From contig NZ_KI914666.1 of assembly GCF_000520495.1 (NCBI RefSeq), forward strand, positions 79,239 to 129,991: a stretch of 50,753 nt of DNA, given 5' to 3'. A model generated the notes under the pieces. That model was given only the letters and a program-made list of their open reading frames with translations. It had not been told where the DNA came from and did no database searches. This DNA comes from Arthrobacter sp. H14. GTDB taxonomy: Bacteria > Actinomycetota > Actinomycetes > Actinomycetales > Micrococcaceae. Numbering within the stretch: the first letter of the stretch is position 1; each line of letters starts with the position of its first letter. Both the position numbers and the translations under genes were made by a program. Of this stretch, positions 4,101-29,498 are shown in pieces.

Positions 4101-4463
4101 ATTTACTCCACCCCGGAAAAGGCGAAGCGCGCGTCGTTCGACCTTACCGGGTTTGCTGTTCCGTCCGGTTCCACCGATACGCCGTTGGTTTCATCGCCAT
4201 CGGCGCTCGATGCACAACAAGGCGTTGAGACAAATATCGAGTTGTCCTGGGAAGGGCTGGATCACAATGCGGTCTACATGGGGCTGATTGGCTACGGTGT
4301 TTCCGCGGTCAACACCGTTGTCACCGTTAGTACCGGAGATGTTCCTTGCCAGGCGCCAGGTAAACCTCACGACGGTCAGCAGGCCAAGCCCAGCCACTCC
4401 GGTGAGCAGGGCCAGCCCGCTCATTCGAAGCTGGAGCATTGCAAGCCCGGCATGTCCTCGTAA
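1200..4463 (+). CDS. Secreted subtilisin-like serine protease (S8, with PA insert)
   Basis: About 1087 residues from the GTG at 1200, chosen because a twin-Lys/Arg N-terminus, a hydrophobic Ala-rich segment and an AYAQ-type cleavage site follow directly, which is a secretory signal peptide. An open frame runs back to ATG 1104, but that extension does not look like a leader. GGAGAG at 1192-1197 is only 2 nt from the GTG, so the start is not certain. An I9-like propeptide covers about residues 60-165. The catalytic triad is visible as Asp205 (VIDTGIAP), His298 (GHGHGSHTAS) and Ser629 (GTSMASPHVAGLAAL). A protease-associated domain is inserted between His and Ser (about 455-570), as in lactocepin-like and plant-type subtilases. 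Fn3-like beta domains follow (about 720-1040). The last 40 residues are hydrophilic, rich in Gln, His, Lys and Pro, with two Cys. No LPXTG anchor or terminal membrane helix is seen, so the protein is probably released. Confidence 0.92.
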   Translation: MNKKRSRNSARSFSRTSGRFLAATAAISLAATAAGGTAYAQPSDTSPSLPERQAIDTSNFVDGATYIVTLAQDAASSYEGGVNGIPATAPGNGKQLNANSQAVKQYQGHLKKQHKEVAAEVEAEPTRNYTLTVNAFAAEMTALQAKKLAADKDVISVEKNQLHKIQQSTTDFLGLGSEADGSGGVWQEIGGPDEAGKGIVVGVIDTGIAPENPSFAGADLTDEVSADTPYLSGEAITFNRADGGTFTGTCQAGAEFTADDCSTKLIGAKYFVEGFGAANIGTPITDGEYGSPRDGHGHGSHTASTAAGKFGVEADLDGIDMGTISGVAPAAKIAAYKACWTGNDPGVTTDDGCATTDLLAAIEAATNDGVDVINYSIGGGAAQSTVSPIDQSFLGAAEAGIFVAASAGNSGPGASTLDNASPWITTVGNSTYDTPQSTVVLGNDAKLTGASLSISDAGLDEAPLILAEDAALEGAAEAPLCGPGSLDPAKVGGKVVVCDRGQFALIEKATEVADAGGAGMVLVNKPGESSSVLSLQYPVPTVHLTAEHRDELRAYAATEGATASMIREAVNPMVIPAPQIAESSSRGPVLADGSNILKPDVTAPGTGILAAGANAEGEDPQQVLMSGTSMASPHVAGLAALYLGEQPDASPAEVKSALMTTAYNLVDSSGEPVKDVFTQGAGHVDPTRYLQPGMYFPAGSDDWFGYIQGLGYDLGADVPDVEGSELNQPSIAIGSMAGPRTVSRTVVSTEAGTYTADVDMPGFDVTVSQPTLTFEKAGESKTFDVTFKRTDAEMDTFSDGYLTWTSGNGNTVRMPLAAAPASMLAPATVSGEGTEGSIDMTVTPGLDGSVAVDTFGLAKGHLFTPEEGQFINGYLGAPVDGTVRSKEHSGEGTAGQTISYEMDVAEGTRLATFDLDSVDDTADLDLVVVHLNAAGVPDTLWQSASASADEKVQISTPVAGKYLVQANIYSTPEKAKRASFDLTGFAVPSGSTDTPLVSSPSALDAQQGVETNIELSWEGLDHNAVYMGLIGYGVSAVNTVVTVSTGDVPCQAPGKPHDGQQAKPSHSGEQGQPAHSKLEHCKPGMSS

Positions 4464-4537
4464 CACTGTTCCAGACCGCTATCGATAAGGGCATCTGAAT
4501 GACGTGATTCCCTGCCACCGGCAGGTTGGATCGGGAA

Positions 4538-4584
4538 CAGAAAATGCGGTGTGGTGGTTATATCCACTGCACCGCATTTTTCTG
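4538..4584 (+). terminator. Rho-independent terminator after the subtilase
   Basis: The left arm CAGAAAATGCGGTG (4538-4551) pairs with CACCGCATTTTTCTG (4570-4584) with one bulged base. An inner GTGG/CCAC pair extends the stem. The right arm carries five T residues and the left arm four A residues, so it could stop transcription from either side. A second perfect 6-bp hairpin (CCTGCC/GGCAGG, 4511-4525) lies just upstream. Confidence 0.8.
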
Positions 4585-4759
4585 TCCTGGTGCATTTCCG
4601 ACACGCCGAAGTTGCGGCGACACGGCACTTTTTCACTTGTGGGTTTCTCCTCCACAGACTGTGGACAGAACCTCGTGGAAAGCCTCAAAGACGGGCTTTT
4701 AAGTTGAAGATTCGACGCTGGGACTGTGGACTATCAGCCGTTGGAATGACATACTTGTA
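4585..4759. other. Non-coding leader region upstream of nrdH with DnaA-box-like motifs
   Basis: No gene is seen here. TGTGGACAG (4660-4668) and TGTGGACTA (4725-4733) each match 8 of 9 bases of the actinobacterial DnaA box complement TGTGGACAA. The first forms half of a perfect 15-bp palindrome, TCCACAGACTGTGGA (4651-4665). DnaA control of nrd genes is established in E. coli; here it is only a suggestion. Confidence 0.35.
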
Positions 4760-4807
4760 ATACATCATGTTGGGGTGCCTTTCATGAAGGCGCACTAGAT
4801 GTAGTAT
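4760..4807 (+). promoter_or_regulatory. Pair of NrdR-box-like operators upstream of nrdHIEF
   Basis: Box 2, GCACTAGATGTAGTAT (4792-4807), fits the NrdR consensus acaCwAtATaTwGtgt closely. Box 1, ATACATCATGTTGGGG (4760-4775), is weaker but shares the core CwnnATnTwG. The two starts are 32 bp apart, three helical turns, which is the usual arrangement of paired NrdR boxes. TAGTAT inside box 2 (4802-4807) could be the -10, so bound repressor would block RNA polymerase. The nrdR gene itself is not in the window. Known: NrdR is an ATP-cone/zinc-ribbon repressor of nrd operons. Confidence 0.7.
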
Positions 4808-4943
4808 CGAAGAACAAACACCAGTGGTGGTGGGGTGTACGCCAAAGATCGACAATCAACGCCTTGAAGATGAGGCCGATGTGGTCGCTTCAGCAGTCAC
4901 CGCCACGACGTAGTTAGAGACACTTCTGAAGGGGAGAGGGACC

Positions 4944-5189
4944 ATGACCGTAACGGTATACACCAAACCAGCGTGCGTTCAGTGCAACGCAACTTACCGG
5001 GCTCTGGATAAGAAGGGCATCACCTACCAGAGCGTGGATATGTCCCAGGATCCCGAAGCCCTCGATCGGGTCCGGTCCCTCGGCTACATGCAGGCACCGG
5101 TTGTCGTCACTGAGAAGGATCACTGGTCCGGGTTCCGTCCGGACAAGATCAATGAACTTGCTCAGTCCTCAGCAACATCGGTGGCCTGA
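4944..5189 (+). CDS. nrdH: Glutaredoxin-like NrdH redoxin
   Basis: An 81-residue thioredoxin-fold protein with the redox motif C-V-Q-C at residues 11-14 (KPACVQCNATYRALD) and the NrdH signature WSGFRPDKI near the C-terminus, which distinguishes it from glutathione-dependent glutaredoxins. It donates electrons to the class Ib ribonucleotide reductase NrdE and is itself reduced by thioredoxin reductase. A purine-rich ribosome binding site (GAAGGGGAGAGGG) precedes ATG 4944. It is first in the nrdHIEF operon; nrdI follows after 35 nt. Length and order are typical of actinobacteria. Confidence 0.97.
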   Translation: MTVTVYTKPACVQCNATYRALDKKGITYQSVDMSQDPEALDRVRSLGYMQAPVVVTEKDHWSGFRPDKINELAQSSATSVA

Positions 5190-5224
5190 TTTTCCGAAGC
5201 TATTGACGCTAAGGAGCAGTGCCC

Positions 5225-5716
5225 ATGTCATCGCAGGCCATGGCAGAGCTGAAAGATGCAGCCGCCGGAGCCCAGGACAATCAGGCGGGCAACTTCACCG
5301 ACGCGCAGTTGATCTACTTTTCTTCCATATCGGCGAATACGCACCGGTTTGTTGAAAAGCTGGGCGGGCAGGCGGGAAGAATTCCGCTTCGCACCCAAGA
5401 AGAAACCCTTCACGCACGAGCACCTTACGTACTGATTCTGCCCACCTACGGTGGAGTCTCAGGTAAGGGAGCCGTGCCGAAGCAAGTAATCAAATTCCTC
5501 AATTGCAAGGAAAACCGATTACTGATCCGCGGCGTTATCGGCGCGGGCAACACAAATTTCGGGGAAACATACTGTTTGGCCGGCGACGTCGTCGCAGCCA
5601 AGTGCCAGGTTCCCCACCTGTATAGATTCGAACTAATGGGTACGCCGGAAGACGTCGCCAAGGTTCATGAGGGATTGGAAGAGTTTTGGACACGACAGTT
5701 GCAGAGCCGGAAGTAG
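5225..5716 (+). CDS. nrdI: Ribonucleotide reductase flavodoxin NrdI
   Basis: 163 residues from ATG 5225, which has AAGGAG (5211-5216) at good spacing; a GTG six bases earlier is less likely. The flavodoxin-like phosphate-binding loop is seen in [13 protein letters not shown] (about residues 30-42), with the NrdI-typical ILPTYGG and [15 protein letters not shown] segments later. NrdI supplies the oxidant that builds the Mn(III)2-tyrosyl radical cofactor in NrdF. The 3' end overlaps the proposed nrdE start by about 31 nt if the TTG at 5686 is used, which would couple translation of the two genes. Confidence 0.96.
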
Positions 5717-7857
5717 CAGAAGAGAAGCCAATGCCGGCGGCGTTTGAAGGTCTGGGCTACCACGAGCTCAACGCGATGCTGAACCTCTACGGAGCGGACG
5801 GCAAGATCCAGTTTGAAGCCGACCGCGAAGCAGCACACCAGTACTTCCTGCAACACGTGAACCAGAATACCGTGTTCTTCCATGATCTGGAGGAGCGCCT
5901 CGACTATCTGGTCAAGCATGACTACTACGAGCGCGGTGTCCTCGACCAGTACACGATGAACTTCATACGCGACCTGTATGACCGCGCGTACAAGAAGAAG
6001 TTCCGGTTCGAAACCTTCCTCGGTGCCTTCAAGTTCTACACCTCCTACACGCTGAAGACTTTTGACGGCAAGCGCTTCCTCGAACGGTATGAGGACCGCG
6101 TTTGCATGGTCGCACTGGCCCTTGCCGGCGGTGATGAGAACCTGGCCACGCATCTGATGAACGAGATTATCGACGGCCGCTTCCAGCCGGCGACACCCAC
6201 TTTCCTCAACTCCGGCAAGAAGCAGCGCGGAGAGCTCGTCTCGTGCTTCCTGCTGCGCATTGAGGACAATATGGAGTCGATTGGCCGCTCCATCAACTCT
6301 GCACTGCAGCTGTCCAAACGCGGCGGCGGTGTCGCTTTCGCTTTGACGAATATCCGGGAAGTCGGAGCACCGATCAAGCACATCGAAAACCAGTCCTCCG
6401 GCGTCATCCCCGTCATGAAGCTGCTGGAAGATTCCTTCTCCTACGCCAACCAGCTCGGTGCCCGCCAGGGTGCCGGTGCCGTTTACCTGCACGCACACCA
6501 TCCCGACATCTACCGGTTCCTCGATACCAAGCGCGAAAACGCCGACGAAAAGATCCGCATAAAGACGCTCTCGCTCGGCGTCGTCATTCCGGATATAACC
6601 TTTGAACTGGCCAAGAAGGACGAGGACATGTACCTGTTCTCACCCTATGACGTTGAGCGCGTCTACGGCATGCCGTTCTCTGATATTTCGGTGACCGAAA
6701 AGTACTACGAAATGGTCGACGATTCACGAATCAAGAAGTCCAAGATCAAAGCCCGCGACTTTTTCCAGACACTGGCGGAGATCCAGTTCGAATCGGGTTA
6801 CCCGTACGTGATGTTCGAAGACACCGTGAACCGGGCCAACCCGATTGACGGCAAAATCATCATGAGCAACCTCTGCTCCGAGATCCTTCAGGTTTCCCAG
6901 CCGACGACCTACAACGATGATCTGTCGTACAACGAGGTCGGCAAAGACATCTCCTGCAACCTGGGTTCGCTCAACATTGCCAAGACGATGGATTCACCGG
7001 ATTTCGGTGCCACCATTGAAACCGCTATCCGGGGTCTCTCCGCAGTCTCCGATATGAGCCACATTTCATCTGTGCCTTCGATCGAGAAAGGCAACGACCA
7101 GTCACACGCGATAGGCCTGGGACAGATGAACCTGCACGGCTACCTCGCACGGCAACGGGTCTATTATGGCTCCGAAGAGGGCCTGGACTTCACCAACATG
7201 TACTTCTACTCAGTGGTTTACCACGCGCTGCGCGCCTCAAACAGGATCGCGATGGAACGCGGTGAAACTTTCGGCGGCTTCGAGAAGTCGGATTATGCCA
7301 ATGGGAGCTACTTCGACAAGTACACCGACCAGGTCTGGGAACCGAAGACCGAACGCGTCCGTGAACTCTTCGAGGAAGCCGGCGTAAACATCCCGAGCCA
7401 GGAGGACTGGCGGGAGCTGAAGGCGTCGGTCATGGAGCACGGGATCTACAACCAGAACCTGCAGGCGGTTCCGCCGACAGGATCGATCTCCTACATCAAC
7501 AACTCGACGTCGTCGATCCATCCGGTGGCGTCCAAGGTGGAAATCCGCAAGGAAGGCAAGCTCGGTCGTGTTTACTACCCGGCCCCTTACCTGACTAACC
7601 ACAACCTGGACTACTATCAGGATGCTTATGAGATCGGCTACGAGAAGATCATCGATACGTACGCCGAGGCCACCCAGCACGTGGACCAAGGGCTGTCGCT
7701 GACCTTGTTCTTCAAGGACACCGCCACCACCCGAGAGATCAATAAAGCCCAGATCTACGCTTGGCGCAAGGGCATCAAGACGCTCTATTACATCCGCCTG
7801 CGCCAGCAGGCCCTTGAAGGCACTGAGGTGGAGAATTGCGTCAGCTGTATGTTGTGA
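5686..7857 (+). CDS. nrdE: Class Ib ribonucleoside-diphosphate reductase, alpha subunit
   Basis: The catalytic subunit, which reduces NDPs to dNDPs. Visible features: [12 protein letters not shown] near the start, the substrate-loop cysteines in [11 protein letters not shown] and SNLCSEILQ, the [12 protein letters not shown] active-site segment, [18 protein letters not shown], and the terminal ENCVSCML with the CxxC pair that NrdH reduces. There is no N-terminal ATP cone, as expected for class Ib. The start is uncertain: TTG 5686 gives 723 residues, ATG 5731 gives 708; both fit the family. It is third in the operon, followed by a perfect 15-bp hairpin before nrdF. Confidence 0.96.
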
Positions 7858-26314: not shown

Positions 26315-26773
26315 ATGTGTCTTCAATGCGATGGGATGTCGCGACGCCAAGTATTGGAAAGTTTTAAAGACGTTATTCGTCGGGACGGATGGTCCATACA
26401 GTTCGTCGGGGGAGATCTGGACAATATCCCCCGTGGCTATACCGTGGGCCTGACGGAGGTGAACCATCCGGAAATTCTCGTGACCGGACGAAACATAGAG
26501 GAAACCTGCGCAATCCTCCTCGAACTCGCGTTGATGGTCGTCGATCATGGACATGTCCTGGACCCCGGCATGGAGCTTGGTTTGCACAGCCGGACGGTTT
26601 TCCTGGCCCCAATGATGGAACCGGCCAAAGTCCTGCTCACGGCCAGAGCCCTGTACGGACCCAGGCTGTCGGCTGTACAAGCCGTATGGGTCGACGACGA
26701 GGGCCGATTCCCTTGGCAACAGGCAGTTCCGGATGTGCTCACCCAGCCGATTTATGGGATGTTCACCGTCTGA
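26315..26773 (+). CDS. DUF4262 domain protein
   Basis: A 152-residue protein of unknown function. The start MCLQCDG gives a CxxC pair, followed by GWSIQFVGGDLDNIPRGYTVGLTEVNHPEILVTG, the DUF4262 core, and VQAVWVDDEGRFPWQQAV near the end. ATG 26315 has GGGAGGAAA in front. It converges on the asparagine synthetase fusion gene and the two overlap by 11 bp at their 3' ends (26763-26773). The 136-bp spacer to the divergent M3 peptidase contains a small inverted repeat, CGACA/TGTCG (26242-26256). Confidence 0.78.
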   Translation: MCLQCDGMSRRQVLESFKDVIRRDGWSIQFVGGDLDNIPRGYTVGLTEVNHPEILVTGRNIEETCAILLELALMVVDHGHVLDPGMELGLHSRTVFLAPMMEPAKVLLTARALYGPRLSAVQAVWVDDEGRFPWQQAVPDVLTQPIYGMFTV

Positions 26774-29498
26774 ACACGATGGACATCGGCGTGGTTTCCG
26801 TGGTTTGGCCCTGGGGGTTGTCACGGAAGACCGATTCGAGGGTCGCCTTGGACAGATCCGTATCGTCACCGAGGGCAACACAGCCCAGATCGTTGGCATC
26901 CATGATGGCGGTACCGGCGAAATTCTTCGCGTGCTCAGCGGGAAGTTGTTCACGGAGCAGGCCGCTGAGCCGTGCGGCAACACCTTCGGGATCCGTCGGA
27001 GCAAGCTTCACGGAGTGCGTAGAGGTGCCCACCTGGTACCCGGCGGCGCCATCAATGGCGTTGATGTTATGGCCCACAACCTCGTAGAAAACACCCTTTT
27101 TGCCTTGCAGCTTTCCGAGCACGCTGCGGCCGGATGCGTAGAGGATCCGGGAAAGGCCGACTTCATCGATTGCCAATTGCATGGACCACGGGCTGGCCAG
27201 TCCGATGCCTCCGGGATTGCGGCTGACGAAACGGCTGAGCAGCCGTGCCGCACTGGAAACCTTGATGTCCCAGACCGGAATGGACCGGCCCTGGGTCATC
27301 GCAACGATCTTCTCGCTGACGAATAGATACCAGGGAACATCATTCACGACGCCGGCATGGTCGCCGCCTGCGTCCGACAAGCCTCCAAAGAACCGCTGCA
27401 CGTAGCTCAGGACAGCTGGCTCGAAATCTGTGTCACGGTAGAAGACCTCCGTGCGCAGCGGGTAGCGCCGGAAGGTTGATTCAACCGCACCATCCGTCTT
27501 TCCTCCGCTTCCCGCGACGGCAGGTGCGGTGCCCACGCCGGCCGCCGTGCCGTCGTCGTGCTTCACCGTGATGTCCAACGCCTTGGTGGGGTTGGACTCA
27601 TAATCGGTCTTCGGCTCACTGCCGACCTTGACTTCGGGCTCGTCGAAGTACTCACGCAGCCACAACTCAGTATTGAGCAACCGCCAAAACACCATGGTCG
27701 ATGCACTGTTCTTGTCCTGGAGGTATTCCTCGAACGCATACAGCACGGCGTCCTGATCCCAGTAGGGACGGTACTCGAAGGAGGAGGAGAGGAAAATCTC
27801 GTAGATCTTCTCCTTCATGAGCTTGAACCATTCGGCCTCCGGCGTCGTGAAGCCAATCTTGTTTCGGCGGTTGCTGATCAACTCCGGCAGCAGACCGCGT
27901 GTGGCATCCCGCAGAATGCGTTTGTTCCAACCACCCTTGATGATCGACTCGTCGTCGAGGCTGAAGAGGTACTTGACCACTTCCTTGTCCAAAAACGGAA
28001 CGCGTCCCTCGAGTGAGAACCGCATGGTGTTCTTGTCCTCGTAACGCAGCACGGCAGGCAAGGACTTGTAGAACAAATCGTCAATCAGGCGAAGCTTGAG
28101 GTTGTCCGGGATATTGGAAAACTTCTCGTTGGCGTACTTGCCCGTAAACTCCTTGCGCAGGAGCGAGGAGATGGACAGACCCTTACGGTTCGTAACCATG
28201 CCCCGGAGGCGGAAGCGGCCCAAGCGGTAGAAGATATCGAGTGCGGAAGTGACCTCTTTGGCCAGCTTGCGGTACTCGCCCCGGGTCTTAAGCTGGCGCA
28301 GATAGGCAAAGTAATACGGAACATAGCCGGCCATCATCTCGTCAGCGCCCTGACCATCGAGCAGCACGGTCACATGCTTGGACGCCTCCTGCATTACCCG
28401 GTACTGGGCGTATGGTCCCGAGGAAATGATCGGTTCTTCCTGGGTGCGGACGAAATCCTCAAGATCGATGGCGAATTCGTCAGCCCTCGGGAGGATCTTG
28501 TGCGCGGTGACATTGCCTTGGCAAGTGTCCAGGACGGCGTCAGCGTAGTTTTCCTCATCATTAATCGAGTTCGGAAACACCGCGGAGAATGTCTGCTGGG
28601 TCGCACCGAGTGAGTCGGTGGCAGCGGCATGTTCCTGCATCAGCTTATTAATAGTGACGACGACGGCGGAGGAATCCAGCCCGCCGGACAATGCGGTGCC
28701 GACTGGAACCTCGGACTGCAGACGCAGTCGTACTCCTTCGGTGAAGCGGCGGCGGTATTCGTTGATGACCTCGCGGCTGTACGGCGTCTCCACCGAGGCG
28801 AGCTCCGCGAGTTCCTCCTTGAGCCGGGTGTAGGAACTGACCTCGAACTCACCGGTGGCCGTATCGATGACCATCTTTTCGCCCGGCATCAATTTCCGGA
28901 TGCCGGCAAAGAAGGTTTCCGGTTCGTCGTCGTGGATCCGGAACTGGAGGTAGCGGTAGAGGATGCGCTCATTCGGCCGGCGTTCGATCTTGTCGGCTGC
29001 AAGGATCGACTTGATCTCGGAGCCGAAGAGGATCTGCGGCTTATCGTCCGTGCCGGCGTTGGCGTAATACAAAGGCTTAATACCGAAGTGATCACGTGCC
29101 AGTACGACCCGGGAACGCTTCTTGTCGTAGATGGCAAAGCCGAACATGCCGTTAAAGCGGTCAAACGCCTCATCGCCCCACTCTTCGTAGGACTGCAGCA
29201 GCACTTCCGTGTCGGAGACGGTGCGGAACGTGCGGCCCAGGGCTTCGAGCTCCGCCTTGAGCTCCAGGTAGTTGTAGATTTCGCCGTTGTAGATCAGCAC
29301 GACGTCGCCGTCGGCGCTGTACATCGGCTCCTGCCCATGCGCGACGTCGATAATCGACAACCGCCGGTGGGACAGTCCAACTGTGTCCTCGTTGAAATAG
29401 CCCTCGCCGTCGGGGCCACGGTGCTGAATGCACTCGTTCATTGCTTCAAGAAGGGAGTTGTCCTCCGTGAAGCCACAGTATCCGGCGATTCCGCACAT
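26763..29498 (-). CDS. asnB: Asparagine synthetase B fused to a CofE-like (F420 gamma-glutamyl ligase) domain
   Basis: 911 residues from ATG 29498, chosen because the next codon is the nucleophile Cys (MCGIAGYCGF) and GAGGT lies 8 nt upstream. Residues 1 to about 215 are the class II glutaminase (SHRRLSIIDVAHG, YNGEIYNYLELK, GMFGFAIYD). About 225-621 is the AsnB synthetase with the PP-loop ALSGGLDSSAVV and GQGADEMMAGY. A Gly/Ala/Thr-rich linker covers about 622-675. Residues 676-911 resemble the F420-0:gamma-glutamyl ligase family (VSEKIVAMTQGRSIP, GKKGVFYEVVGHNINAIDG, AIMDANDLGCVALG). AsnB alone is about 620-650 residues, so the tail is an added module. Which amide or glutamyl product the fusion makes is unknown. 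It overlaps DUF4262 by 11 bp at the 3' end and sits between pdxS and pdxT. Confidence 0.85.
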   Translation of the reverse strand: MCGIAGYCGFTEDNSLLEAMNECIQHRGPDGEGYFNEDTVGLSHRRLSIIDVAHGQEPMYSADGDVVLIYNGEIYNYLELKAELEALGRTFRTVSDTEVLLQSYEEWGDEAFDRFNGMFGFAIYDKKRSRVVLARDHFGIKPLYYANAGTDDKPQILFGSEIKSILAADKIERRPNERILYRYLQFRIHDDEPETFFAGIRKLMPGEKMVIDTATGEFEVSSYTRLKEELAELASVETPYSREVINEYRRRFTEGVRLRLQSEVPVGTALSGGLDSSAVVVTINKLMQEHAAATDSLGATQQTFSAVFPNSINDEENYADAVLDTCQGNVTAHKILPRADEFAIDLEDFVRTQEEPIISSGPYAQYRVMQEASKHVTVLLDGQGADEMMAGYVPYYFAYLRQLKTRGEYRKLAKEVTSALDIFYRLGRFRLRGMVTNRKGLSISSLLRKEFTGKYANEKFSNIPDNLKLRLIDDLFYKSLPAVLRYEDKNTMRFSLEGRVPFLDKEVVKYLFSLDDESIIKGGWNKRILRDATRGLLPELISNRRNKIGFTTPEAEWFKLMKEKIYEIFLSSSFEYRPYWDQDAVLYAFEEYLQDKNSASTMVFWRLLNTELWLREYFDEPEVKVGSEPKTDYESNPTKALDITVKHDDGTAAGVGTAPAVAGSGGKTDGAVESTFRRYPLRTEVFYRDTDFEPAVLSYVQRFFGGLSDAGGDHAGVVNDVPWYLFVSEKIVAMTQGRSIPVWDIKVSSAARLLSRFVSRNPGGIGLASPWSMQLAIDEVGLSRILYASGRSVLGKLQGKKGVFYEVVGHNINAIDGAAGYQVGTSTHSVKLAPTDPEGVAARLSGLLREQLPAEHAKNFAGTAIMDANDLGCVALGDDTDLSKATLESVFRDNPQGQTTETTPMSIVFRR

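Follow-up and report, generated by a model that had tools for sequence, protein, structure and literature searches.

An AsnB-type amidotransferase fused to a CofE-like domain in Arthrobacter sp. H14 and other bacteria

The window, by which we mean the whole stretch of 50,753 nucleotides analyzed from Arthrobacter sp. H14 (NZ_KI914666.1, positions 79,239 to 129,991), contains a gene whose product joins an amidotransferase of the asparagine synthetase B (AsnB) type to a domain resembling CofE, the F420-0:gamma-glutamyl ligase (Table 1). A single open frame for both parts had been proposed in the original prediction, and the frame of 911 aa indeed runs without interruption on the minus strand, its ATG lying at 29498 and its stop at 26763, with a plausible GAGG-type ribosome site preceding the ATG. 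A DUF4262 gene (26315-26773, plus strand) is convergent with the fusion gene, whose 3' end it overlaps over 11 bases. The 54 residues between the two halves, previously read as a low-complexity linker, fit that description at residues ~647-674 only. Residues ~633-646 carry a conserved N-x-G-K-x-L-x-I motif and form a predicted strand in the model of the whole protein; as stand-alone relatives of the CofE-like half (e.g. L082 and L083) begin at this strand, the CofE-like module was taken to start at ~633, with the insert placed after its first strand. The corresponding stretch is 28-30 residues long in relatives, 24 residues shorter than here.

Table 1. Features of the fusion gene and its product (coordinates are those of the window)
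Feature	Coordinates	Strand	Residues	Remarks
Whole gene	26763..29498	-	911 aa	AsnB-type amidotransferase plus CofE-like ligase domain
AsnB half	27639..29498	-	1-620	Class II glutamine amidotransferase (Cys2) plus AsnB-type ATP-pyrophosphatase synthetase domain
Acceptor-site signature EEPIISSGPYAQ	28404..28439	-	354-365	Conserved columns of the fused clade; replaces E. coli YDVTTIRAS
First strand of CofE-like module (..SNPTKALDITV)	27561..27602	-	633-646	Corresponds to the N-terminus of stand-alone relatives
Low-complexity insert	27477..27560	-	647-674	Mostly in this genome only; pLDDT 30-40
CofE/F420-ligase-fold domain	26766..27476	-	675-911	
Lys730 in SEKIVAMTQGR	27309..27311	-	730	Matches TSKIVSKAEGR of FbiB/CofE; invariant in 59/59
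Asp816 (IDG)	27051..27053	-	816	Matches the GVD Asp of FbiB/CofE; invariant
Asp867 (DANDLG)	26898..26900	-	867	Matches the TDTxGR Asp of FbiB/CofE; invariant
Gln898 (NPxGQxxxxTP)	26805..26807	-	898	Proposed match of the CofE metal-binding Gln, motif by eye; invariant

The AsnB half scored 421 bits against TIGR01536, 216 bits against PF00733 and 154 bits against PF13537 (GATase_7), and the catalytic motifs of both of its domains are in place (Cys2, NGEIYN, SDTE, SGGLDSS, GQGADE and NKRILR). In structural alignment by VIA, its nearest solved structure was the hydroxyamidotransferase TsnB9 (7ylz, Z 37.8), and E. coli AsnB (1ct9) was matched at Z 36.4. The claim that all AsnB motifs are intact was correct for catalysis but not for the acceptor-site segment, where the Asp-recognition sequence of the E. 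coli and human asparagine synthetases (YDVTTIRAS / YDITTVRAS) is absent and EEPIISSGPYAQ stands instead. The pattern EEPxxS(S/T)GPYAQ was found in nearly all members of the fused clade, including those from candidate phyla and the split ones. The D and R of the Asp-recognition segment mark Asn-making enzymes (PMC8554201), and our placement of these Asp-binding residues within the present alignment is putative.

Another AsnB of the genome, L230, has an E. coli-like motif including the arginine. No asparaginyl-tRNA synthetase (AsnRS) was found above cut-off in this genome, so free Asn would not be required for tRNA charging and, given L230, the fused AsnB is dispensable for this purpose. As no AsnRS scored above cut-off in 33 of 34 genomes, there was no correlation to draw, and Asn supply for tRNA was dropped as an explanation. 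With a different acceptor-site motif and a genome lacking AsnRS, the fused protein is probably not a plain asparagine synthetase. We built a tree from 25 fused halves together with 12 unfused AsnB of relatives, a tandem AsnB and the split protein of L082. The split protein grouped with the fused halves in a single clade (100/100 support), apart from the unfused proteins, which were few (12). Among 59 relatives, every AsnB of at least 73% identity was fused, full-length unfused AsnB had 29-37% identity, and shorter AsnB pieces reached at most 40% over ~150 residues, hits below 30 bits being left aside.

For the C-terminal part, a PF01996 profile comparison had been suggested, and its outcome was divided: the domain matched at E 5e-4, and 58 of 59 aligned relatives also matched (E up to 1), the best at 3.9e-11, but its own score of 20.1 bits lies under the Pfam cut-off of 25 bits, so that a genome search with PF01996 reports nothing. 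An AlphaFold model of residues 675-911 built from 59 sequences (pLDDT 86, pTM 0.83) returned, at E below 0.001, only CofE chains from the PDB in Foldseek (2phn, 4.5e-7), and aligned with CofE in VIA at Z 13.5 and 3.5 A over 180 residues with about 18% identity, the next unrelated fold reaching Z 4.9. In the whole-protein model (pLDDT 87, pTM 0.80), residues 676-911 matched CofE at Z 13.2. Comparison of FbiB domains with the CofE-like family by hhalign aligned the expected motifs but gave a low probability of 15.7, and the structure thus carries the weight of the assignment. In the PDB sequence set, CofE was matched by a more diverse profile (A2) at E 1e-5 and was not found by a larger family profile (A3); two rows of A2 contain minor errors in their first residues, and these rows served for searching only. 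We conclude from the relatives and the predicted structure that the C-terminal ~236 residues are CofE-like, in agreement with the original prediction.

The motifs of the CofE-like half pair with those of CofE as SEKIVAxTQGR/TSKIVSKAEGR, IDG/GVD, LAPxDP/LLPxDP and DANDxG/DTxGR, plus the proposed GQ, all of them invariant or nearly so across the 59 sequences. K730, R738, D816, D867 and Q898, at the nucleotide-metal motif positions of FbiB/CofE, are invariant in 59/59, including proteins with a dead AsnB half. The Asp residues of FbiB/CofE that match Asp816 and Asp867 are metal ligands in the annotation of the A. fulgidus enzyme, as is the Gln. A further CofE ligand, Thr151, is Ala in the CofE-like half.

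A stop codon lost through sequencing error between two separate genes had been named as a possible source of the fusion. The fusion was present in 12 of 59 relatives with the own genome counted, and none of the other 11 (of 58) had an internal stop; it was therefore not made by sequencing error. At least 75 of the 80 nearest relatives, among at least 520 relatives of the CofE-like domain in a scan of named genomes, were fused to AsnB, which likewise rejects an assembly artefact. In profile searches that include stand-alone copies, the C-terminal domain was found in 55 of 396 genomes of the order and 25 of 396 genomes of the phylum. The fused hosts among the 80 nearest relatives were Actinomycetota (Micrococcaceae, Intrasporangiaceae, Dermacoccaceae, Dermabacteraceae, Actinomycetaceae, Catenulispora, Salinispora and Actinomadura) and also candidate-phylum bacteria, e.g. 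Roizmanbacteria. The AsnB-CofE pairing is real, old and present in hundreds of genomes.

Other arrangements of the two domains were also found. Other lineages carry stand-alone CofE-like copies of about 220-350 aa, and L082 has a two-gene version in which a separate asnB gene is directly followed by a separate cofE-like gene. In three loci from other actinobacterial lineages (L090, L091 and L092), an N-terminal TPR-like repeat region is fused to the CofE-like domain, and in L157 a separate AsnB gene (4185-6062) lies in tandem immediately upstream of the fused gene. Terrabacter aerolatus (L153 and L172) and Terracoccus sp. 273MFTsu3.1 (L152 and L186) each encode two fused paralogues, one with an altered and one with an intact AsnB. 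Metagenome bins assigned to Coriobacteriales, Saccharibacteria, Patescibacteria and Nomurabacteria (L157, L160, L165 and L167) formed one clade within actinobacterial sequences, reflecting recent transfer or a binning error. A record titled Sporosarcina beigongshangi (L131) contains an Arthrobacter-type locus and is probably a mislabelled or contaminated assembly. The plasmid collection gave no match.

The two halves have had different fates. The AsnB catalytic motifs were lost in nine sampled fused proteins. Mapped by parsimony on one tree of the CofE-like domain, this takes 7 changes, 6 of which are forced by well-supported branches. For two such proteins (L116 and L023) compared with close intact relatives, dN/dS was 0.53-1.17 in the dead AsnB halves and 0.12-0.24 in the CofE-like halves, as simple Nei-Gojobori estimates at high divergence that show a contrast and not exact rates. 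Decay of the AsnB half at least six times, with the CofE-like half under purifying selection, indicates that the latter has work of its own. No AsnB scored above the family cut-off in G301, G046 and G203, three genomes whose AsnB half is dead. In the lineage of the present gene, dN/dS of the two halves was 0.06 and 0.10 against L013 and 0.16 and 0.14 against L016; both halves are constrained, indicating that both work here.

The fusion protein is not an F420 enzyme, since its own genome contained neither a PF01996 protein (FbiB/CofE) nor a TIGR03550 match (CofG/FbiC) above cut-off, and identity as the F420 ligase was accordingly rejected. CofG (TIGR03550) was also not found above cut-off in 10 Micrococcaceae carrying the fusion, while FbiB/CofE was present by PF01996 above cut-off in 53 of 60 members of the class. 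The structural alignment to CofE extends to residue 221 of the latter and does not reach Arg234, the residue that stacks on F420 in the A. fulgidus enzyme (PMC10861534). One genome with a stand-alone CofE-like copy (G115) has CofG, so the stand-alone branch is not cleared of F420 in general. As PF01996 genes are usually taken as a sign of F420, it matters that many checked hosts of the CofE-like family have no F420 genes.

We propose, at about even confidence, that the protein is a bifunctional enzyme forming amide bonds in a pathway not yet described, with the ligase half as its core and amidation as an optional step. AsnB-type enzymes adenylate a carboxylate, which is then attacked by glutamine-derived ammonia; the N-terminal half would likewise release ammonia from glutamine and amidate a carboxylate, its target probably being the same small molecule or peptide on which the C-terminal half acts and not free aspartate. 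The C-terminal half, with its CofE fold, would activate a carboxylate with GTP (or ATP) and a divalent metal and join it to an amino acid (glutamate or a relative), as in CofE, where GTP phosphorylates the carboxylate and glutamate attacks (PMC10861534, PMC8498797). Ligation would be the core activity, and the amidation step would have been lost several times. Both activities in one inherited protein suggest two tailoring steps, ligation and amidation, on one molecule. The fusion, the fold, their conservation, the separate AsnB clade, the repeated decay of the AsnB half and the lack of F420 genes are results of the analysis; that the C-terminal half is catalytic, what its substrates are, which step comes first and any channelling between the steps are inferred. 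Against the proposal speak the low sequence identity to CofE, the Ala in place of the ligand Thr151, the match of Gln898 by motif only, the small number of unfused AsnB compared and the lack of a partner gene conserved beyond single lineages.

Among the alternatives, it is conceivable but rather unlikely that the AsnB half supplies the CofE-like half with asparagine, or with glutamate or ammonia from glutamine, for ligation to an acceptor, the AsnB half being lost where the amino acid comes from elsewhere. That the AsnB half was lost repeatedly and the ligase half retained is consistent with such a supply, and Glu and Asn, products of AsnB, are of the nucleophile type used by CofE (mechanism in PMC10861534), but the acceptor-site motif lacks the Asp-recognition residues of the E. 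coli/human type, L230 with its E. coli-like motif is already present in the genome, and any cell is rich in Glu.

A cell-envelope precursor (a peptidoglycan peptide or similar) as the target would be a special case of the bifunctional enzyme proposed above with its substrate named, and the genomic context bears on it. With neighbours outside the window named by eye from sequence and not by profile search, the gene order in Micrococcaceae was pdxS, M3 peptidase, fusion gene, pdxT, yebC and ruvC. The placement between the two halves of PLP biosynthesis noted originally is thus real; it was seen in Micrococcaceae only, other lineages placing the fusion gene elsewhere, so that a link to PLP was rejected and the pdxS-pdxT position carries no clear functional message. 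Envelope-related neighbours occur in scattered lineages: dapB and dapA flank the fusion gene in Brachybacterium, yggT and divIVA flank the asnB and cofE-like genes of L082, dapF lies two genes from the fusion gene in L157, and murJ (MurJ/MviN-like flippase) adjoins the CofE-like gene in distant lineages, both stand-alone (L094, L096 and L097) and AsnB-fused (L190). Neighbours at most loci are nevertheless unrelated to the envelope, including pdxT/yebC, guaA near the fusion gene in Intrasporangiaceae, and gatCAB, which follows it in the Roizmanbacteria group only (lemA, htpX, fusion gene, gatC, gatA and gatB), and the hosts of the fusion differ in peptidoglycan type. The list of envelope neighbours was compiled with the loci already in view and therefore carries little weight. 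In C. glutamicum and Listeria, AsnB homologues do amidate mDAP (PMC7920481, PMC8554201), but on balance we consider an envelope target unlikely. No operon partner conserved across lineages was found, partners recurring within single lineages only, and the context therefore names no pathway.

A C-terminal half that is no enzyme itself and only regulates AsnB by sensing a nucleotide or ligand, an option left open in the original prediction, would suit the intact state of the fused enzyme in most members and the end of the CofE alignment before the F420-ring-binding part, but the domain also exists alone, was kept through at least six destructions of the AsnB half and has invariant putative catalytic residues, which weakens this option to the least likely of the alternatives and makes it improbable.

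For the bifunctional amide-bond-forming enzyme that we prefer, the product may be, with somewhat less than even confidence, an amidated compound of aminoacyl or glutamyl type that has not been described (a small peptide, a cofactor-like molecule or an envelope precursor), made in Actinomycetota and candidate-phylum bacteria through a CofE-type ligase that has departed from F420 metabolism. A CofE-like family of at least 520 relatives, standing alone or joined with an AsnB clade of its own, points to an undescribed amide metabolite, and the lineages that kept the ligase and lost the amidotransferase are natural experiments. Each of the two folds is known. Their union appears to be undescribed, since no account of it was found in the searchable, open-access literature.

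Among known systems, CofE and the N-terminal domain of FbiB (F420-0:gamma-glutamyl ligase, PF01996) have the same fold and the same motif order (SK..GR, GVD, LPxDP, DTxGR) as the CofE-like half and likely the metal and nucleotide site in common. They differ from it in the low sequence identity given above, in their association with F420, absent from the present host, and in lacking its long middle insert with conserved motifs of its own; moreover, the CofE domain of FbiB is fused to a nitroreductase, whereas the present domain is fused to AsnB. Asparagine synthetase B (TIGR01536; 1ct9) shares the glutaminase and ATP-pyrophosphatase domains with their catalytic motifs, whereas the fused protein belongs to its own clade with EEPxxSTGPYAQ in place of YDVTTIRAS and a C-terminal CofE-like domain. 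TsnB9 differs from the AsnB half in its acceptor motif and is not fused. LtsA/AsnB, which amidates meso-DAP in peptidoglycan (PMC7920481, PMC8554201), is likewise of the AsnB type. The AsnB half may resemble it in acting on something other than free Asp. LtsA/AsnB is not known to carry a CofE domain. The N-acetylglutaminylglutamine amide pathway (asnO plus ngg), in which an AsnB-type amidotransferase and an amide ligase make a small amidated peptide, offers by analogy an amidotransferase-plus-ligase working mode like that proposed for the fused protein, although its ligase is an ATP-grasp enzyme with an acetyltransferase and not of the CofE fold, and the two are encoded by separate genes.
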